From the NCBI GenBank assembly GCA_029907205.1, contig JARYMI010000004.1, positions 1-64,000 of the forward strand: a stretch of 64,000 nucleotides of DNA, written 5' to 3'. The notes beneath the pieces are model-generated. The model saw nothing but the letters and a program-made list of their open reading frames with translations, was not told where the DNA came from and did no database searches. Positions within the stretch are counted from its first letter, which is position 1. Each line of letters starts with the position of its first letter. A program made the translations under genes and the position numbers. The stretch comes from Clostridiales bacterium. Its GTDB lineage: Bacteria > Acidobacteriota > Aminicenantia > Aminicenantales > UBA8522. Positions 43,908 through 52,633 of this stretch are shown piece after piece.

Positions 43908-44687
43908 CTATATTTCCCTTTCCTTGGGGCCATCGTATTCGAAATCCGAAGGATGGATTTTGCGCATCGGCCGCATTCGCGTTTTTTCTTCATGGATGTG
44001 AGCAACCAACCCGGGCACGCGGGAGATGATGAAAAAAGCGTTGCCGATTTCGGCCGGGATTCCCAGGTCACAGAGGAGCGCCGCGATGGCGCCGTCAACG
44101 TTGATGGGGAGGGCCTTGCCGAGGCTCTCCTTCAAAATATTCTCGATGAGCCGCGAGATCCGGACATGCCGGCCACTCAGGTTCAACTCCTCGGCCAGCG
44201 CAAAGAGCCTGGTTGTCCTCGGGTCCTCGGTGTGGACGCGGTGGCCGAAACCGGAAGCCCGCTCTCCCCTCGCTTTCATCTCCGCCAGAATCTCCCTGGC
44301 CGCTTCGTCTTCTGTGATCTTCTTTTCGTCCGCCCTTTTTGCGACCGCGTGAAAGAGGTTCATCCCCTCCTCGATGGCGCCCCCATGAAGCCGGGATATG
44401 GCCAAGACTCCGGCCGCGATGGCGGCGTGGAGCTCAGCGCCGGTGGAGGCGACGGTGCGCGCTGTCAACACCGACGGCGGGCCCGCGCCGTGGTCGATGG
44501 AGGAGACAAAGATGGCATCCAAAAGCTTCCCTACCTCCGGCGAAGGCAGTTCGCCCTGGAGCACAAGGTAGATGGCTTGTGAGAAAGAAATTTTGCCCAT
44601 CAGCTTATCGATCAGATAGCCCCGCAGCCTGACTTTGTTCGGCTCGACACTCGTGATGGCTGTCTTCCAGCGAAGCTCTTCGCTCAT
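43908..44687 (-). CDS. Citryl-CoA lyase-like protein (short citrate-synthase fold)
   Basis: This 259-residue protein (ATG at 44687 with GGAGGG upstream) is a citrate-synthase-fold enzyme about 110 residues shorter than ordinary citrate synthases. The catalytic residues are kept: His101 in HGGAIE, His149 in GFGHRVH and Asp198 in NVDGA. The size and the TAITSVEPNKVRLRGY start match citryl-CoA lyase and the lyase domain of ATP-citrate lyase. It would split citryl-CoA into acetyl-CoA and oxaloacetate. Genes for a SucD- and a SucC-type subunit immediately upstream could supply citryl-CoA. A minimal citrate synthase acting in the other direction is the alternative. Confidence 0.82.
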   Translation of the reverse strand: MSEELRWKTAITSVEPNKVRLRGYLIDKLMGKISFSQAIYLVLQGELPSPEVGKLLDAIFVSSIDHGAGPPSVLTARTVASTGAELHAAIAAGVLAISRLHGGAIEEGMNLFHAVAKRADEKKITEDEAAREILAEMKARGERASGFGHRVHTEDPRTTRLFALAEELNLSGRHVRISRLIENILKESLGKALPINVDGAIAALLCDLGIPAEIGNAFFIISRVPGLVAHIHEEKTRMRPMRKIHPSDFEYDGPKEREI

Positions 44688-44721
44688 TTTGCTTCCCTCC
44701 ATAAACTAAAAAACCAGCTTT

Positions 44722-45615
44722 TCATCCTAAAAGCTCCGCCGCTTTCCTCGGAATCTCCGAGATGGACTCGACGACATGGGCTCCGGCTTCTCGCAACCTC
44801 CTGACTTTCGTCTCGTAGGAGCCGCGCGAGCCCTCAACGATCGCTCCCGCATGAGAAAACCGCGTCCCGCTCTTGGCCGCCTTGCCGCCGATGTAAGCGA
44901 TGAGCGGCTTGGTGAATTTTCCCGCCTCCATAAGGTCGGCCACTCGCTCTTCTTGAGTCGTTCCGATCTCGCCAAACATGACGGCGAGTTTGGTCTCAGG
45001 GTCCTGCTCGAAAAGCTCCATGACCTCGGGATGGGAAAGGCCGACGATGGCGTCTCCTCCGACATGGATGATCGTGCTCTGGCCGACGCCCGCGCAAGTG
45101 AGATAATAGGAAATGGCCGAGGTCATGCCGCCGCTCCGGGAGCTCACGCCGACAGGCCCCGGCTTGAACCATTCCCTGGCCCGCTCTGCGCGGCCGCCGA
45201 TCATGCCGAGGACCGCCTGGCCCGGGCTGACCAAGCCGAGGGTGTTGGGACCGACAAAGCGGGCTCCTCTCTCGCCTGCCCTGGCGGCAATCTCGAGGAC
45301 GTCATGAATGGGAACGCGGTCGGGAACGATAACGAGGAGTTTCACGCCGGCCTCGATGGCCTCGAGAGCAGCATTCTTGACTAAGGCCGCCGGAACGAAA
45401 ATTACGGCGGCGTCGATGGGCCCCGCCTTCTCCCATGCCTGAGCCACCGAATCGAAGACGGGAATGCCGTAGACATCCTGACCTCCCCGGCCGGGCGTCA
45501 CACCAGCAACGAGCACCGTCCCGTAGTCCTTCATCAACTGAGCCCGGACCATCCCCTCGCGGCCGGTAATGCCCTGGATGATCACCCGTGTCGTCTTATT
45601 CACCAGGATGGCCAT
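44722..45615 (-). CDS. SucD-like CoA-ligase alpha subunit (succinyl- or citryl-CoA synthetase)
   Basis: This 297-residue protein (ATG at 45615 with GGGAGAGG just upstream) has the SucD layout: an N-terminal CoA-binding Rossmann domain with a VIIQGITGREG start, then a ligase domain with the phospho-His loop FSHAGAIVEGSRGS near 246-259. It is a normal length for succinyl-CoA synthetase alpha. Its neighbour is the citryl-CoA lyase-like gene, so it may be the small subunit of a citryl-CoA synthetase rather than of the TCA-cycle enzyme. The 5' extension to 45651 is less likely. Confidence 0.88.
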   Translation of the reverse strand: MAILVNKTTRVIIQGITGREGMVRAQLMKDYGTVLVAGVTPGRGGQDVYGIPVFDSVAQAWEKAGPIDAAVIFVPAALVKNAALEAIEAGVKLLVIVPDRVPIHDVLEIAARAGERGARFVGPNTLGLVSPGQAVLGMIGGRAERAREWFKPGPVGVSSRSGGMTSAISYYLTCAGVGQSTIIHVGGDAIVGLSHPEVMELFEQDPETKLAVMFGEIGTTQEERVADLMEAGKFTKPLIAYIGGKAAKSGTRFSHAGAIVEGSRGSYETKVRRLREAGAHVVESISEIPRKAAELLG

Positions 45616-45768
45616 GTCCTCTCCCCTTTGAATTTGGGGGACGCCATACATAATACACTAAACCGCCTCCCATCCTTGATCCTGAGGACGACGTCTTTTC
45701 GGCACGGATTACAGAAAATTCCGGTTATTCTGAAACTTTTTGTCATCGCGCATCGTCTTAGTTTTTCT

Positions 45769-45806
45769 ATAATTCCTACAAATTCTATAGATATAATAGG
45801 AATTAT
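45769..45806. promoter_or_regulatory. AT-rich dyad between the SucC-type and SucD-type genes
   Basis: ATAATTCCT (45769-45777) and AGGAATTAT (45798-45806) are a perfect 9-bp inverted repeat with a 20-bp spacer in the 202-bp gap. It could be an operator for an internal promoter or a leader structure. Confidence 0.45.
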
Positions 45807-45817
45807 CCGCATCGCCC

Positions 45818-47383
45818 TCATCCGTCGCCTCCGCCAGCGATGATTTTTTCCCGGTATTCCTTAAGCCCGGGAATCGGAAGATGGATGACGATGGCGTCTT
45901 GTTCATGGAAGGTGCAGAAGATTTCGCAGGCCAGGCACTCGGTGCATTTCCCGCGCCTGACATCCTCAACCGGCATGGCCAACACAGGCTTTCCCTCCTC
46001 GAGCTTCAGGATCTTGGCGGCACAGGCTTCAATGCAACCTTTCGTCTTGCAGGCAGCGCATTTTCCGTGGTCGATGGACAACCGACCTGTCAACGTATCG
46101 AAAACATAAGCGATTGTGGGAATAGACGGCTCGATGACCGGATTCACCTCATGGCTCAAGGTCGGACTTTTGGCGACAAGCTCCTCCAGCCTGCTCGCGC
46201 AGAACTCCGGTGAGTCGTCGCGGCCGTAACCTTCGACAGCCCCGGGAATGCCCTTGAGATAAGCCTGAAGGATCTCGATCGCTTTCTCTTCGAAATTCCC
46301 GCCCAACCGGATAACCGCCGGGATGGATAAATTTTCCTCGTTGAAAGCCTTGACGAACCCTCGGGCTGAATGGTACTGCTCCTGGCTGGCGACGCCCGAG
46401 CCCGAGGCAAAATACCCCTTGATTCCCGGCTGGGAGAGGATGATTTTGGCGGCCCGGTAGACTTTGCTCGCCGGCGGGTTGCCGCTCGTGTCGCAGTAGT
46501 TGGCCAGCTTGAACCCGCGCCTGAGCACAGCGTCCATGGACATCATCGACCCTCCGCCACCGGCGCCGTGGAAGCCGATGTATTTCTCGGCCTCGGCCAC
46601 ATTCTCGACCATCTGGAAGAAATAGAAAGTGCCCCGGTAATCCTTCTCTTCAACCCGGTAGGCGATTTTTTCGAGCTCGGTCGGTGGCCGGTCGAATTCC
46701 CGGGCGACCTCGATACCTAACTCAGGATGCCTGAAGACAGCGTAATCATCGACGACGATGTGGCAGTCGGCCGCAAAGACGGCGCCGTCCTCTGTCAGGA
46801 CAAGAGGGTTAATCTCTGCCGAACGGGCATCGCTCGACCTGACAACCCTGTAAAGCCGGGTGAAGAGGTCAGCCAGCTTCACAAGAGTGTTCCCGCCAAT
46901 CCCAGCCTGGATGACCATGTTCCTGGCTTCATACTCGGAAAAGCCCCTGAGAACGTCGATCGGCTGCTGCGCAACTTTCTCAGGGTGGAGCCGGGCAATC
47001 TCCTCGATACCCGTCCCGCCGGCAGGACTGAAGACGAGGAGCGGCTGCTTCAGGCCGTCATCCAGCACAAGCCCGGCAAAATACTCGGCCTTGATGGTCA
47101 GCTTCTCCTCGACCAAGACTTTATCGACGACAAAATTGCCTACCTTCATTCCTAAGAGCTGGCTCGCTTTCTCCTCGGCTTCAGCCGGCGTGGCTGCAAA
47201 TTTAATCCCGCCCAGCTTTGCTCTCCCCGTCACCCACACCTGGATCTTGAGGACGACAGGGCGGCCGATTTTTTCGGCAATCCGGCGAGCTTCCTCAGAA
47301 GTCGAAGCGACCCCGCCCTCAGGGACAGGGATTCCGCCCTGCTTGAGAAGCGTCTTGCTCTGGTATTCAAAAAGCCTGGCCAT
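45818..47383 (-). CDS. SucC-like ATP-grasp CoA-ligase subunit fused to a two-cluster ferredoxin domain
   Basis: This 521-residue protein has an ATP-grasp domain (1-230) and a SucC-like ligase domain (about 260-410) with a GFHGAGGGGSMMSMDA loop. After these a ferredoxin-like domain is fused: Cys442, 445, 450 and 454 and Cys480, 483, 486 and 490 can hold two [4Fe-4S] clusters. Ordinary SucC ends at about 390-400 residues. The neighbours (SucD-like, citryl-CoA lyase-like, aconitase-like) suggest citryl-CoA synthetase; the clusters could link the ligase to electron transfer or sense redox state. This is the first gene of the cluster and has a promoter at 47412-47441. Confidence 0.85.
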   Translation of the reverse strand: MARLFEYQSKTLLKQGGIPVPEGGVASTSEEARRIAEKIGRPVVLKIQVWVTGRAKLGGIKFAATPAEAEEKASQLLGMKVGNFVVDKVLVEEKLTIKAEYFAGLVLDDGLKQPLLVFSPAGGTGIEEIARLHPEKVAQQPIDVLRGFSEYEARNMVIQAGIGGNTLVKLADLFTRLYRVVRSSDARSAEINPLVLTEDGAVFAADCHIVVDDYAVFRHPELGIEVAREFDRPPTELEKIAYRVEEKDYRGTFYFFQMVENVAEAEKYIGFHGAGGGGSMMSMDAVLRRGFKLANYCDTSGNPPASKVYRAAKIILSQPGIKGYFASGSGVASQEQYHSARGFVKAFNEENLSIPAVIRLGGNFEEKAIEILQAYLKGIPGAVEGYGRDDSPEFCASRLEELVAKSPTLSHEVNPVIEPSIPTIAYVFDTLTGRLSIDHGKCAACKTKGCIEACAAKILKLEEGKPVLAMPVEDVRRGKCTECLACEIFCTFHEQDAIVIHLPIPGLKEYREKIIAGGGDG

Positions 47384-47411
47384 TCTCGCTCGTTCCTTTG
47401 TGGGTTATATT

Positions 47412-47441
47412 ATATTATGGAAGAAGGGAAAACAAAGTCAA
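47412..47441 (-). promoter_or_regulatory. Predicted promoter of the citryl-CoA/isomerase cluster
   Basis: On the minus strand TTGACT (47436-47441) and TAATAT (47412-47417) are 18 bp apart, followed by further TATA-like repeats and the AAAGGAACG site before the ATG at 47383. Confidence 0.45.
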
Positions 47442-47543
47442 CGGGAACCGCGTCCAGAAAGAACCAAGATCAAGAGAGGACGATTTGTTCTCTCCCCTGC
47501 TTGATAATGAATCTCTTGGGTCTATCAGCCTGTCATAACCTGC

Positions 47544-47939
47544 CTACTCCAGCCAGATTTTGACCGTCTCGTCGTCCTCATAGACTTCGATGAGGGCCAT
47601 CGGACCCATCGCCTTGAGCTCCTTGAACACGGCCGCGATGTCGATGTCGCAGCCGCTCTCTTTCATCCGCAGGTGCTTGTTGTCGGCGCAACGCAGGAAA
47701 ATCTCGACGATGGCGATGGGCATGGTCACCTTAGCCTTGTCCTTGCCCGTTTTGTTATCGGTGACGAGAATTTTGAACCACTTGACATCCTTGCCAGCAG
47801 CTTCGAAGGCGGGGTTTTCCTTGACGGCCTTTTTGATGGCCTGAAGGTCATCCCGGCTGTCTGCCCGTAAAAAATAGGGCCCCAGCAAAAAGGCCACTGT
47901 CATAACGACCAAGATTGCTGTTGATGCTTTTTTCATCAT
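47544..47939 (-). CDS. Small exported protein with a LiaX/YvlB-like SHOCT-type domain
   Basis: This 131-residue protein (ATG at 47939 with GGAGG just upstream; ATG 47936 is also possible) has a signal peptide and then a single domain. That domain has a KILVTDN strand, an AKVTMPIAIVEIFLRC strand-helix, and a C-terminal LIEVYEDDETVKIWLE strand pair. The pattern resembles the SHOCT-like domain of LiaX/YvlB proteins. The upstream gene ends with the same domain, so they are related. It is the last gene of an ECF sigma operon. Confidence 0.65.
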   Translation of the reverse strand: MMKKASTAILVVMTVAFLLGPYFLRADSRDDLQAIKKAVKENPAFEAAGKDVKWFKILVTDNKTGKDKAKVTMPIAIVEIFLRCADNKHLRMKESGCDIDIAAVFKELKAMGPMALIEVYEDDETVKIWLE

Positions 47940-47962
47940 TGTCCTCCTCGCTATTGAAATTT

Positions 47963-48814
47963 TCATTCGCGGTCGATCCAGATTTTGATCGTCCTATCTT
48001 TTTCCCTGATTTCTATGATGCTTCCCCTTGTTTCGGTCAGCTCATCGATGATTTTGTCCAGGTCATATCCTTCGGACCTCAAGGCTGACCTGTCTTTCTC
48101 CGGGATGGCGCTCAGTGCCAGGTCGGCCAGGGCCCAGGGGATGTTGATAGAAAGCTCCGGCTCCTTCTGGCCTTCGACATAAACCCGTATTTTCAAAATC
48201 CTGACTCTTCTCTCTTCCTTCCCCCGCTCCACTTCCCTGAGCGCATCCGGGGAGATGCGGAGCAGGGCGATCTTGGCGCGGTCTTGGAGGTCAAGGTCTT
48301 TTTCCTGGGCGATAATCTCCTTGAGAACCGGGATCGCACGGGAGGCAGCCTGCTTGTCTTTCACCAGGCTCAGCTTGAAAGCGGCATAGTACCGGATGAC
48401 CCGGTTGGAGCTCTGCAGCCTCGTTTCTATTTTTTCCCTGTGTTGTTTTTTCTCTCCTTTGCTGTAAAGGTCATAAGCCAGGTCAATGATAGAGGTCTCG
48501 GCTTCCTCGACCAGGCTGGGGTTTCTGTCCTTACAGCCCAGATAATCTTCGTAGGCGGTCAGGGCTTCTATCTGCTTTGCTCTCCGTTTACCGAGGCACT
48601 TGGCGCGATAAAAAATCGCCTGGCAGGCCAGCGGGCTGGAAGGGTAATCCTGGAGGAATGCTTCCAGTTTCTTTTGGGCCTCTTCCCATTTCTCGTCAAA
48701 CAGGAGAATCTTGGCCTCCTGGAAAATCTTTTCCTCTGGTGAGGGCTGGGCCCCTCCCCAAACCCAGAGGAGGGCGGCCAACATTATCCCTAGAAATAAG
48801 GCAGTTTTTCTCAC
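47963..48814 (-). CDS. Exported TPR/HEAT-type protein with a C-terminal LiaX/YvlB-like domain
   Basis: This 283-residue protein has a signal peptide (about 1-22), a helical-repeat region of TPR type (about 25-190: KIFQEAKILLFDEKWEEAQKK, then further helices) and a C-terminal domain of about 75 residues. That last domain has ILKIRVYVEG, INIPWALADLALS and a final IIEIREKDRTIKIWIDRE, matching the layout of the next gene's domain. It follows the anti-sigma gene by 1 bp. A role in sensing or answering envelope stress is inferred from the operon. Confidence 0.72.
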   Translation of the reverse strand: MRKTALFLGIMLAALLWVWGGAQPSPEEKIFQEAKILLFDEKWEEAQKKLEAFLQDYPSSPLACQAIFYRAKCLGKRRAKQIEALTAYEDYLGCKDRNPSLVEEAETSIIDLAYDLYSKGEKKQHREKIETRLQSSNRVIRYYAAFKLSLVKDKQAASRAIPVLKEIIAQEKDLDLQDRAKIALLRISPDALREVERGKEERRVRILKIRVYVEGQKEPELSINIPWALADLALSAIPEKDRSALRSEGYDLDKIIDELTETRGSIIEIREKDRTIKIWIDRE

Positions 48815-48815
48815 C

Positions 48816-49613
48816 TCAGACCTCGCTTTTTTGGAGTTCTTTTTTAAGCAGTCTTATTTTTAAAAGAAGACTTCTGTCTTCAATCAGGTTCTGGATCTCC
48901 TGGCGTTCGGCTTCGGTCAGGCCTTCGCTCACGGCAGCCAGCTCGTAGAAAAGAAGCTCAATCTGGTCACAGATATCTTTGGCTTTGGCCATCTGGGCTT
49001 TCTCCAACTGAAGGTTGAGGAATTTCTTCTTGGAGAGAAGCTCTCTGGCTTTCGCCGCAACCGCTTCATTCAGCCGGAATTTTCCGTCCGCAGCAGATGA
49101 TTGGGCGAACTCAAGAAGTACGGCCTGGCTTTTTTCCAGGTAGTCGAGCGTCTCCCGCCTGGCAATCTCCAGGTCCACCCGGTCGAGAAACTCCTTGGAA
49201 GCAAAGAGGGACGCGACTCCCCCGTTTTCCGACGTGCGTCCTCTGAAAACGAACCAGGCAGCCACAGCCCCGACCAGGATTCCCAAAAGAAGTCCGGCCA
49301 CGACAGGCTTGAGCTTAGGCGAGAACAGCCAGAATTTCTCCCGTTCCGGGAGAGTTCGGGGCCGCTTCCTCTTGTCCCAGGCCGAAGCCACGATTTTCTC
49401 AGACATCTCGTCCCAATCAATAGAAGCCATGACCTTGTCGAACTCGGGTTTTAGAGCATCCGCGCTCTGGAGCGTCCGCTGGAAAAGTTCGAGTTCAGCG
49501 CGGCAGGCGGCACACTGCTCAATATGGCGTATGACCTGCTCTCTTTCGCGGCCCTCAAGCTCTCCGCTCTGAAAAGCCGCCATGTTTTTTCTCGCTTGTC
49601 GGCATTCTTTCAT
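48816..49613 (-). CDS. Anti-sigma factor with zinc-finger domain
   Basis: This 265-residue protein has an N-terminal zinc-binding anti-sigma domain: His in IRHIEQCAACRAE with an HxxxCxxC pattern near 30-37. A single membrane helix (about 105-125: VAGLLLGILVGAVAAWFVF) follows, then a long helical extracytoplasmic domain. It would hold the ECF sigma factor at the membrane until a signal arrives. Its start overlaps the sigma gene stop by 4 bp, a coupling usual for cognate pairs. Confidence 0.85.
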   Translation of the reverse strand: MKECRQARKNMAAFQSGELEGREREQVIRHIEQCAACRAELELFQRTLQSADALKPEFDKVMASIDWDEMSEKIVASAWDKRKRPRTLPEREKFWLFSPKLKPVVAGLLLGILVGAVAAWFVFRGRTSENGGVASLFASKEFLDRVDLEIARRETLDYLEKSQAVLLEFAQSSAADGKFRLNEAVAAKARELLSKKKFLNLQLEKAQMAKAKDICDQIELLFYELAAVSEGLTEAERQEIQNLIEDRSLLLKIRLLKKELQKSEV

Positions 49614-50191
49614 GGTTGCATCCCCAATTGCGGGCTCAGCAATTTTTTCATGTTCTGGACCGCCTTAAAATGGAGGGACTTCACCGTCCCTATGGATATA
49701 TCGAGAATTTCGGCGATCTCTTTATAATGAAGCCCGTTATAGTGTTTCATAACAAAAACAAGCCGTTGCCTTTCCCCAAGCTTATCAAGGCATCGAGAAA
49801 ACGCTTGGCGCAAATCAGAATTCAAACCGGGCGATGCTGCCGCCCCTGAAGCCGGGTCGAGCTCATCGACGCTCTTCTCAACCTCCATCTCCCGCCGCCG
49901 GCTGTAGTGCTTCCGGTAATAGTCGATGGACAGGTTTTTGGCGATTTGCAGCAACCAGACTTGGAAATTTCCTTCCGTGTCAACAGTGTCGAATTTCTGA
50001 TAGAGCCTCATGAAAGTTTCCTGAACGATATCGAGGGCGTCTTCGCGGTTCCGGAGAAAAGAATAGGCCATCTGAAAGACCTTTTGCTGGTAGAGGCGAA
50101 CAACGGTTTTGAAGGCGTCTCTGTCGCCGTCCTTGGCTTTTTCGAGAAGAATCCAGAGGTCATCATGCGTCGTCTCTTTTATCCTGTCCAT
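49610..50191 (-). CDS. ECF-type RNA polymerase sigma factor
   Basis: This 193-residue sigma factor has region 2 (about 25-92, with EDALDIVQETFMRLYQKF and an IAKNLSIDYYRKH stretch) and region 4 (about 130-185, with LHYKEIAEILDISIGTVKS as the helix-turn-helix). The downstream gene encodes its likely anti-sigma factor. The two exported proteins after that are probable members of its regulon. The 229-bp gap before the RRM gene, where a self-regulated promoter would be expected, shows no box I can assign with confidence. Confidence 0.92.
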   Translation of the reverse strand: MDRIKETTHDDLWILLEKAKDGDRDAFKTVVRLYQQKVFQMAYSFLRNREDALDIVQETFMRLYQKFDTVDTEGNFQVWLLQIAKNLSIDYYRKHYSRRREMEVEKSVDELDPASGAAASPGLNSDLRQAFSRCLDKLGERQRLVFVMKHYNGLHYKEIAEILDISIGTVKSLHFKAVQNMKKLLSPQLGMQP

Positions 50192-50420
50192 GCGATGGCG
50201 CTTTTCCCCAGCCGCTTAGAGAAACCCGACGTCTTACTCCTGCCAGGTTAATTTTTCCGTGCTCATTCAGAAGCCTCATGGTCTACTACGGGCGCTTTTC
50301 AGAAAAGGTTCACCCTGGCCGCAAAAAAGCCGCGGCGAAAAGGTTTTACGCAAAAAGCCCCCTTTCGTCTCAAGCCCTCGAGAACGGGCCTCAATGAATT
50401 CTTAAAAGACGGTATCTATT

Positions 50421-50705
50421 TTAAAACTTGCGGAAGTCTCTGCGCTCTCCTCCCCGGCTTTCTCGTCTTTCTGTTCGAGGCCTGGCATCGTTGACGATAA
50501 TCTTCCGGCCGTCAAACTCTGTGCCGTTGAGCTTGGCCTTGGCGTCCTGGGCCGATTCCGGGGTAGCCATCTCGACAAAGCCAAAACCGCGTCCCTGGAG
50601 GATGTTGACTGAATTCACTTCTCCGAACTGGGAAAAAAGGTCTTTCAGCTTCTCCTCTGTGGTCCTGTAGTTGAGGTTACCCACATACAATTTTGAAGCA
50701 GACAT
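50421..50705 (-). CDS. RRM-domain RNA-binding protein
   Basis: This 94-residue protein is a single RNA recognition motif: RNP2 LYVGNL near residues 6-11 and RNP1 GRGFGFVEM near 39-47, followed by an Arg-rich tail (RPRTERRESRGGERR). It has the standard length of bacterial RRM proteins of the Rbp type. These bind single-stranded RNA and are often cold- or stress-related; the ligand is unknown. The AGGAGG site lies 8 bp before the ATG. Confidence 0.92.
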   Translation of the reverse strand: MSASKLYVGNLNYRTTEEKLKDLFSQFGEVNSVNILQGRGFGFVEMATPESAQDAKAKLNGTEFDGRKIIVNDARPRTERRESRGGERRDFRKF

Positions 50706-50917: not shown

Positions 50918-52633
50918 ATGAGAAAAGGCAATTATGTCCTCATCATTGTCCTCATCTTCATTTTTCTGATAACCGCCACGATCTTCGCTTTTCTTTATTA
51001 CGAATTCAGAAGACCGCCGGCCGTCAAGGCGAATTCTTATCTTGAGATCGACCTCACCGGGCCGGTCCATGAGTTTGCCGAACCAGAGTTCTGGACCAAT
51101 TATTTCCTGGGAATCAGGCCTCTCTCCATCCACGACCTCTGGCAGAACATCCGCAAGGCCAAGGCCCACAGCCGCGTCCGCTGCCTTCTCCTGCGAATCG
51201 GCTATCTCGAATGCGATTGGGCCAAGGCCAGTGAAATTCGCGAGGCTGTTCTTGATTTTAAAAAATCAGGGAAGAAAGCCTACGCCTACGTCGAGGAAGC
51301 GCCTGAGTTCGATAAAGAATATTATCTGGCCACGGCCTGCGACCGGATTGTTCTCCACCCCCTGGGCTGGCTGGGTGTCAACGGGATTGGCGGCTGGGTG
51401 CCGTTCGTTAAGAAAGGGCTTGGAAAGCTGGGGGTCGAGGTCGAAGTCGAACATGTCGAAGAATACAAAACGGCCTACAACATGTTCACAGAGGAAGAAT
51501 TCACCCCGGCCCACCGGACGATGATGGAATCCCTGTACGGCGACATCTTCGGCCAGTATGTCCGGGCGGTGGCCGAGGCGAGGAAGAAGACCGAGGAAGA
51601 GGTCAGACAACTCATCGACCAAGGCCTTTTCCAGGGCGAAAAAGCCCTCCAGGCGGGCCTCGTCGATGATCTCCTCTATCAAGACGAACTGGAGAAGCTC
51701 CTCCTTGAGAAAGAGAAAAAACTCGAGCGAATCAAGCTTAGCGAGTACGATAAGGTCAGTCTGTCTTCTGTCGGCTTGGGCAAGGGAAGAAAGGTGGCCC
51801 TTATCTATGCGATGGGACCGATCCACAGCGGAGAGGGCTACTATCAGACCATTGGCGGCAGGACGCTATCCCGCTGGATTCGCCGGGCCCGTGAAGACCG
51901 GAGCGTTGCTGCGATCGTTCTCCGCGTTGACAGCCCCGGAGGGTCGGCCGTCGCCTCTGATGTCATCTGGAGGGAGGTCGCCCTGGCCAAGAAGGAAAAG
52001 CCTGTCGTCGTCTCCATGTCCGACCTGGCGGGGTCAGGGGGTTACTGGATCTCCATGGCGGCCAACAAAATCGTCGCCCAGCCTCAGACATTGACCGGCT
52101 CCATCGGCGTCCTTTCGGGCAAAGTCAATATGTCCGCCTTCTACGAAAAAATGGGCATCACCGCCGAAAAGTTGACCTACGGAAAGAGGGCCGACCTCTT
52201 CACGACTTTTCGAGGGCTGACGCCTGAGGAAAAAGAATTCCTGAAAAAAGAAATCCTGTGGATCTACGACCGCTTCCTGTCCAAGGCTGCCGAGGGCCGC
52301 AACCTCTCCAAGGAAGATGTGGACAAAGTAAGCCGGGGAAGAGTATGGACGGGCAGTCAGGCCAAAGAGATAGGCCTCGTTGATGAGGTCGGCGGAATCA
52401 CCAAGGCCATCGAGCTGGCCAAGAAGCTGGCCGGAATTCCCCTCGATGAAGACGTCCGTTTGATCATCTGGCCGAAGAAAATCTCGTTTTTCGCCTCTCT
52501 ATTCGGCAGGAAAGAGGCCAAGATCAGCCATCCTCTCCTCAGCCCCGACATGGAAAAGCTCCTGCTTATTTTCCGCGTCCTTGAAAAAGAAAAACCCTGG
52601 GCTATTATGCCCCTCTGGCATCCAACTGATTAA
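50918..52633 (+). CDS. sppA: Signal peptide peptidase SppA, long (67-kDa) type
   Basis: This 571-residue membrane-anchored serine protease has an N-terminal helix (about 6-28) and two tandem S49 domains, as in the E. coli long form. The nucleophile is probably Ser373 in AGSGGYW, and Lys165 or Lys166 in VPFVKKGL is the likely general base from the first domain. It degrades cleaved signal peptides in the membrane. GGAGGAG precedes the ATG. Its stop codon shares the bases TTAA with the stop of the convergent helicase gene. Confidence 0.93.
   Translation: MRKGNYVLIIVLIFIFLITATIFAFLYYEFRRPPAVKANSYLEIDLTGPVHEFAEPEFWTNYFLGIRPLSIHDLWQNIRKAKAHSRVRCLLLRIGYLECDWAKASEIREAVLDFKKSGKKAYAYVEEAPEFDKEYYLATACDRIVLHPLGWLGVNGIGGWVPFVKKGLGKLGVEVEVEHVEEYKTAYNMFTEEEFTPAHRTMMESLYGDIFGQYVRAVAEARKKTEEEVRQLIDQGLFQGEKALQAGLVDDLLYQDELEKLLLEKEKKLERIKLSEYDKVSLSSVGLGKGRKVALIYAMGPIHSGEGYYQTIGGRTLSRWIRRAREDRSVAAIVLRVDSPGGSAVASDVIWREVALAKKEKPVVVSMSDLAGSGGYWISMAANKIVAQPQTLTGSIGVLSGKVNMSAFYEKMGITAEKLTYGKRADLFTTFRGLTPEEKEFLKKEILWIYDRFLSKAAEGRNLSKEDVDKVSRGRVWTGSQAKEIGLVDEVGGITKAIELAKKLAGIPLDEDVRLIIWPKKISFFASLFGRKEAKISHPLLSPDMEKLLLIFRVLEKEKPWAIMPLWHPTD

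Follow-up and report, generated by a model that had tools for sequence, protein, structure and literature searches.

A tight operon on the minus strand of the window (the whole 64,000-nucleotide stretch of DNA analysed, from an organism of the Ca. Aminicenantes lineage) raises the question of what two exported proteins, designated here C and D, contribute to a transcriptional unit that is headed by an ECF sigma factor and its anti-sigma factor. The genes are ordered sigma, anti-sigma, C and D (Table 1), with a 4 bp overlap between sigma and anti-sigma, a single base between anti-sigma and C and, as called, a 4 bp overlap between C and D. A sequence-only reading of the locus had recognised overlapping sigma and anti-sigma genes ahead of two genes for exported proteins, and this is borne out by the gene calls, Pfam and hydropathy. 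It had also placed the operon in the response to envelope stress, and an envelope-stress module beside Psp/Yvl is still the best-supported reading, the function being one that we infer from the features described below. A scan of positions 47380 to 47543 found no minus-strand terminator. As judged by eye, D might start at Met10/11, where most of its relatives begin.

Table 1. Coordinates of the operon, its predicted promoter and the domain common to C and D.
Feature	Coordinates	Strand	Evidence or remark
ECF-type promoter, TGAACC-N16-CGTA, 26 bp	50287..50312	-	predicted start of an autoregulated operon
ECF sigma factor, 193 aa	49610..50191	-	PF04542 (5.8e-18) and PF08281 (5.2e-16), both above cut-off; TIGR02937
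Anti-sigma factor, 265 aa	48816..49613	-	zf-HC2 PF13490 (1.1e-09; 38.6 bits over 22.2); hydrophobic segment near residue 104
Protein C, 283 aa, predicted exported; TPR-/HEAT-like repeats, then shared domain	47963..48814	-	
Shared domain of C, residues 205-283	47966..48202	-	hhalign with D, 97.4%; AlphaFold model strands
Protein D, 140 aa as called, predicted exported; mostly the shared domain alone	47544..47966	-	
Shared domain of D, residues 62-140	47547..47783	-	hhalign with C; AlphaFold model

Among relatives of the window organism, C was matched in 92/99 genomes (a few by its repeats only, e.g., G044 and G080), D in 77/99 at E 0.01, and the anti-sigma factor in 89/98. Gene order was followed in 41 loci, namely the window and 40 relatives' loci, which were picked where C had been matched and the contig was long enough to be usable; the presence of C in 41/41 is thus by construction. 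Sigma and anti-sigma genes accompany C in all 41 loci and D does so in 39 (a recheck of L094 and L095 found no D), so that the four-gene order, for which a search had been proposed, does recur. A third copy of the domain, E, is encoded in 18 of the 41 loci by a small extra gene directly before sigma, a figure that is not an unbiased rate, as some loci (e.g., G042, G056, G064, G095, and G098) were chosen after a third copy had shown there; no E turned up in the window. The product is exported and mostly a lipoprotein, with a Cys that is invariant in 17/17 aligned sequences (the eighteenth, at L076, was left out for an over-long ORF call) and a strict lipobox expression that is matched in 14/18. 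A divergent SppA-type peptidase gene lies within 3.5 kb upstream in 30/41 loci, and PF01343 is matched in the window.

Export was called with a hydropathy rule of our own and not with a signal-peptide predictor. By this rule, an N-terminal hydrophobic export segment is present in 41/41 C and 39/39 D proteins, and the anti-sigma factor has at least one hydrophobic segment in 41/41 loci, with HxxxCxxC present in 37 of the 41 anti-sigma ORFs. About 140 residues of the window's anti-sigma factor lie beyond its hydrophobic segment. Upstream of its domain, C carries repeats that a profile search places first as TPR-like (CpoB chain, 1.1e-05; BamD, 0.004) and then as HEAT-like (alpha-rep/HEAT chains), and Foldseek matches the AlphaFold model of C (mean pLDDT 85.7; 78.5 for D) to BamD at E 5.7e-04 and to other TPR chains. 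Such matches would suit a role of C and D in outer-membrane assembly or cell division, on a BamD/CpoB-like scaffold and with a secondary link to stress, a role that we regard as improbable. The similarity is of a generic TPR kind that designed and unrelated repeat proteins reach with like scores, the NCBIfam models are matched far under their cut-offs (YbgF, 28.2 of 90.1 bits; BamD, 20.8 of 81.4), and C, though TPR-like in its N-terminal half as BamD and CpoB are, differs from them in continuing into HEAT-like repeats and the shared domain. Neither these repeats nor the promoter upstream of the operon had featured in the sequence-only reading.

The feature that unites C and D is a domain of about 80 residues at their C-termini. 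As single sequences the two are only weakly similar (E 0.02, 26% identity), whereas profile-profile comparison with hhalign joins them at 97.4% (E 1e-11), in agreement with the earlier proposal of a common 75-residue type of domain and with the check on profile similarity that had been suggested for it. The same kind of comparison gave 98.7% for D with E and 84.1% for C with E, and sets cut to the domain gave 98.0% for D with C, 98.4% for D with E and 93.0% for C with E, against 0.1 to 0.5% for reversed controls (0.5% for D with C). By profiles, therefore, C and D can firmly be taken to end in one homologous domain. Its AlphaFold fold in both proteins is strand-strand-helix-(helix)-strand-strand, predicted with good confidence in D (pLDDT about 80-94) and moderate confidence in C (about 69-84), where the strands span residues 205-213, 221-226, 267-271, and 274-282. 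The elements picked out by eye in the sequence-only reading (a KI.V strand, a helix starting with P, and an IEV..D.T.KIW end) correspond in these models to a strand, the strand-helix portion and the last hairpin. Five columns are invariant in D (A47, P83, L117, W138, and E140) and form no obvious catalytic set, which makes it unlikely that C, D, and E act as enzymes.

The domain family appears to be unnamed, in that it matched no Pfam or NCBIfam model in these searches. Pfam matched the 39 D and 17 E proteins with nothing better than about 0.004; for the 39 D, nothing better than 0.0039 was found among 25 of the 27 NCBIfam families listed, and two tandem-domain proteins and two E proteins gave no match at 0.01. 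Weak Pfam matches to DUF4179 in 3/39 D proteins (best 0.0048) were set aside as noise, as were other single Pfam and NCBIfam matches, none better than about 0.004. In the PDB, a sequence search with D reached a best E of 0.13, and a fold search with the model of D gave a best VIA Z of 4.5, with no Foldseek match at or below 0.001.

The sequence-only reading had called this domain LiaX/YvlB-like, but it is not the one found in LiaX/YvlB. Pfam found neither the SHOCT-like hairpin (PF22746) nor Toastrack (DUF4097) in C and D of the window, in the 39 D or in the 17 E proteins; the NCBIfam LiaX model (NF038025) matched neither C nor D of the window at E 1, and for the 39 D proteins the 25 of 27 families listed do not include it. 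Comparison with LiaX was made through this model and through a YvlB-like protein of the window's own genome, in which SHOCT and DUF4097 are both matched and no copy of the shared domain is found (0.5 bits). Toastrack is reported for YvlB and for a Listeria protein named LiaX (PMC12791056), and SHOCT-like hairpins are described as N-terminal to Toastrack in a passage without mention of LiaX (PMC11237479). Judged by this published make-up (PMC11237479; PMC12791056), C and D are not members of the YvlB/LiaX type, and their membership was rejected on the missing SHOCT, Toastrack, and LiaX matches together with the domain-free YvlB-like protein. They share with LiaX/YvlB an envelope-stress setting, but differ in their N-terminal export segment and in the SHOCT hairpin and Toastrack that were not detected in them.

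What stands of the proposed resemblance is a more distant kinship. A profile of 168 exported domains matched 17 distinct SHOCT-like proteins C-terminal to the hairpin, at E 2e-9 to 4e-5, and one further SHOCT-like protein at 0.0045, while the best of 418 reversed decoys reached 0.72. When compared by hhalign with this post-SHOCT region, the tandem-domain proteins described below scored 96.8% (5.8% reversed), C 80.6%, E 42.8%, and D 37.8%; with a thinner alignment, A4, the values were 82.8% for D, 23.4% for C, and 9.5% for E. The values for C, D, and E vary between alignments, so that the pooled and tandem sets make the strongest case for the link. On these profiles the shared domain is homologous to the part of other small proteins that comes after their SHOCT-like hairpin, for which "post-SHOCT domain superfamily" is our own grouping. 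Small SHOCT-like proteins encoded beside DUF2089 regulators (PF22746, e.g., L105:1495-1911) are of this kind: their C-terminal part is a homologue of the exported domain, but, unlike C and D, they have a SHOCT-like hairpin of their own and no export signal by eye; the DUF2089 neighbour was confirmed by Pfam at L112 and recognised by eye at L114, L115, and L233. A membrane protein of about 92 aa, also encoded beside DUF2089, looked alike by eye and stands as a candidate relative of the domain, with hhalign values of 1.5 to 33% against the sets for D, C, the tandem proteins, and SHOCT; against E it reached 65%, but over 19 columns only, and four membrane ORFs of this type appeared at E 0.0045 to 0.044 in the search with the 168-domain profile.

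LiaX itself carries a SHOCT-like hairpin, and 8/9 SHOCT-like proteins match the LiaX model weakly, one match extending beyond the hairpin (residues 3-129, E 0.00069, 18.4 of 350 bits). These matches, the homology to the post-SHOCT region and the presence of the same promoter before pspC in two genera would all be expected if C and D were genuine members of the LiaX/YvlB family in which SHOCT and Toastrack parts can no longer be recognised. We consider this very improbable, given that D leaves the SHOCT, Toastrack, and LiaX models unmatched and that the YvlB-like protein of the same genome lacks the domain.

Evidence on the control of the operon comes from its upstream region. The pattern T[GA]AAC[CT][TA]-N(11-17)-CGT[AT], with the gap left free, was sought upstream of the first operon gene, and the consensus TRAACYW-N15-CGTW was found in 39/41 loci, always spanning 26 bp, compared with 0.225 of 41 in Markov-resampled controls and 1/41 on the reverse strand. 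At L076, one of the two exceptions, the site sits behind the over-long ORF call, making this a 40th locus; the other, L099, has CGTC in place of CGT[AT]. The site at 50287-50312 is the only match within the window, where 0.01 would be expected. As the motif precedes the operon in 39/41 loci at a constant 26 bp, autoregulation of the operon is very likely. A case that counts against a self-regulating switch is G028, where a site stands before the lipoprotein gene while anti-sigma and C were undetected, although this genome is a 90%-complete draft.

Both halves of the motif have counterparts in characterised ECF systems. ECF promoters carry AAC and CGT (PMC8103513), and the −35 consensus of sigma-W, TGAAACXTTT (PMC6713349), resembles TGAACCTTT of the window operon. 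The sigma-W/RsiW system of Bacillus subtilis likewise pairs an ECF sigma factor with a membrane anti-sigma factor, uses an AAC/CGT core and has Psp-type targets (PMC6713349; PMC8103513; PMC12563154; PMC12791056). The window system differs in belonging to another phylum and in having the genes for its exported domain proteins as part of the sigma operon, and its sigma factor reaches 118 of 209 bits against NCBIfam SigW, below the cut-off. The sequence-only reading had regarded an exported, duplicated form under ECF control as a new setting. This stands in part: Psp-type proteins under ECF control have been seen before, since the yvl operon of B. subtilis (yvlABCD) is partly under the ECF factor sigma-W (PMC12791056), while the exported domain family and its inclusion in the sigma operon appear new as far as the open-access literature searched goes, where no description of the operon or domain was found among the titles listed.

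In the genome of the window organism, TRAACCT-N15-CGTA occurs three times (backwards control, one), and the operon's site alone is placed as a promoter; no second promoter-placed match was found in this search, and the small membrane-protein and DUF3352 homologues of this genome have no site, strict or looser. Candidates for a wider regulon there were rejected, the site at L276 having no gene placed behind it and that at L278 lying within an 887-aa ORF. Across 59 genomes, including this one, a search for TRAACCTT-N14-CGTA gave 83 sites, whereas its backwards control gave 20. Genes that recur behind non-operon sites, identified with Pfam where tested, encode a hydrophobic protein of 63-69 aa, a DUF3352 lipoprotein, PspC, and PadR regulators, together with one DUF4342 gene; many other non-operon sites lead to unrelated genes or to none. 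Three of the PadR sites are in G034. Sites inside gyrase/topoisomerase-like ORFs (L279, L313, and L315) were judged by eye to be coding coincidences.

Three of these gene groups were followed in sets of 30 loci each, drawn from 72 (small membrane protein), 91 (DUF3352), and 62 (pspC) genomes with a match. The motif precedes 12/30 small membrane-protein genes (0.01 expected; the set includes one seed), 5/30 DUF3352 lipoprotein genes (0.015 expected; three seeds), and 4/30 pspC genes (0.02 expected; two seeds), the last in two genera, and the reverse-strand control gave 0 in all three sets. The two non-seed pspC cases, G079 and G092, represent one other genus. The same or a similar sigma factor presumably serves the small membrane protein, the DUF3352 lipoprotein and, in two genera, PspC in relatives. 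Against this, the wider regulon shows in relatives only, and there before a minority of the homologues, and a different ECF factor that shares the AAC/CGT core could be the one to use these sites. The sites before pspC suggest that an ECF factor is connected with the Psp response in Acidobacteriota.

Read from the sequence are a conserved tight cluster of sigma, anti-sigma, C, and D, the shared domain, the export segments and a constant sigma-W-like promoter motif upstream. The mechanism that we favour, and hold to be reasonably probable, is a self-contained switch for envelope stress, in which an ECF sigma factor positively regulates its own operon and C, D, and E serve as exported binding modules. 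The zinc-finger anti-sigma factor would hold sigma at the membrane, from which a disturbance of the envelope would free it; the released sigma would then transcribe its own operon from TGAACC-N16-CGTA, in positive feedback, and C, D and, in relatives, the lipoprotein E would thereby rise outside the inner membrane. There they would act as probably non-enzymatic binding modules whose working unit is the strand-strand-helix-strand-strand domain, free in D, lipid-anchored in E and carried on a TPR/HEAT-like scaffold in C. Their most likely targets as effectors would be the inner membrane, at its outer face, or damaged proteins of this membrane, although it is a guess that the domain binds membranes at all; they would probably also feed back on the anti-sigma factor.

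RseB offers a model for a different division of labour, in which C, D, and E would be mainly sensors or co-regulators that bind the outer part of the anti-sigma factor and set the trigger, and not effectors. With the only promoter-placed site of the window's genome at the operon itself, C, D, and E may serve mostly the circuit, and both the roughly 140 anti-sigma residues after the hydrophobic segment and the conserved clustering of C and D with sigma and anti-sigma would fit such a role. D is missing in 2/41 loci and E was undetected in 23/41, however, with the switch still there, and the domain's occurrence elsewhere in the phylum, set out in the last paragraph, also counts against this alternative, which we think unlikely, if worth weighing.

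A broader and tentative proposal, possible but short of probable, is that of an undescribed envelope-stress system of Acidobacteriota that parallels Psp/Lia. At its core would be an ECF circuit that drives PspC in some lineages and is marked by a new domain, exported alone, with a lipid anchor, on a TPR/HEAT scaffold or in tandem. This domain would share a superfamily with the partner domain that SHOCT-like proteins carry in the cytoplasm, and would have moved from the inner to the outer membrane face and become the output of its own sigma switch. For an uncultured, widespread lineage, the locus supplies a concrete candidate for an envelope-stress pathway, and its defined promoter opens the regulon to simple reporter assays. 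It also points to an exported Acidobacteriota domain family without a Pfam or NCBIfam match here, and corrects a likely mis-annotation as LiaX/YvlB.

Beyond the close relatives, the D profile was matched in 69/247 sampled Acidobacteriota genomes, and 40 phylum loci were drawn from the matches listed. Nine loci outside the class (L236, L237, L238, L240, L242, L245, L248, L250, and L251) combine C with the sigma and anti-sigma genes, and in some of them D or E is present as well; L275 has the same set of sigma, anti-sigma, and C, but lies within the class. The other phylum loci mostly encode proteins of about 180-234 aa with two copies of the domain in tandem. Among clusters with at least 150 bp upstream (shorter ones were dropped), [GA]AAC[CTA]-N16-CGT precedes 15/27 of those without a same-strand sigma/anti-sigma pair (0.27 expected; reverse strand, 0) and 5/10 of those with one (control, 0.07), other spacings giving 0 to 2 matches. 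Three of the 15 motif-bearing clusters (L247, L262, and L266) have a sigma gene nearby on the opposite strand, and the other 12 have no sigma gene in the stretch examined. ECF-type promoters are thus found before tandem-domain relatives that stand mostly outside sigma clusters, which argues against a mainly sensory role. By eye, the tandem-domain proteins have export-type N-termini, and a second related protein is often encoded after them.

The SppA-type peptidase gene upstream of the sigma/anti-sigma operon is a recurrent neighbour, being found in 30 of 41 operon loci (the window and 40 loci from relatives that hold the first of the two exported proteins). Nearer the promoter, coding sequence resembling the RRM gene extends, by eye, as far as the operon promoter in several relatives. 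On the downstream side, a gene that looks CoA-binding-like by eye lies between the ATP-grasp/citrate-binding and citrate-synthase genes of the window, and in several relatives the operon is followed by genes comparable in size to these.

Features flanking the operon or found in relatives (L, loci fetched from relatives' genomes; other coordinates, window)
Feature	Coordinates	Strand	Remarks
SppA-type peptidase gene	50918-52633	+	PF01343; divergent from operon
RRM RNA-binding protein gene	50421-50705	-	PF00076; immediately ahead of operon promoter, same strand
ATP-grasp/citrate-binding and citrate-synthase genes	43908-47383	-	downstream of operon
63-aa hydrophobic protein	L325:1208-1399 and homologues		very conserved
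PadR-like regulator genes (three)	L309:176-502, L310:1134-1499, L312:149-466		all genome G034
DUF4342 gene	L327:1243-1512		genome G022; promoter motif 24 bp ahead
~92-aa hydrophobic protein	L105:1186-1467, L112:1686-1967, L114:1606-1881, L233:1203-1484		flanked by DUF2089-type regulator and SHOCT-like protein

The ECF-type promoter motif also precedes other genes. The 63-aa hydrophobic protein family, which is present in 72 of 98 genomes and matched nothing in Pfam or NCBIfam, has the motif upstream of its gene in 12 of 30 loci. One genome carries a strict copy ahead of each of three PadR-like genes, and both of the two that were scanned gave a Pfam PadR match. The DUF4342 protein has a pattern of hairpin, IPL and hydrophobic helix that recalls, by eye only, the C-terminal domain shared by the two exported proteins.

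The ~92-aa hydrophobic protein, one copy of which had no match in a Pfam scan, has a layout like that of the shared domain with transmembrane segments in place of the helices, a likeness seen by eye that may not reflect homology.
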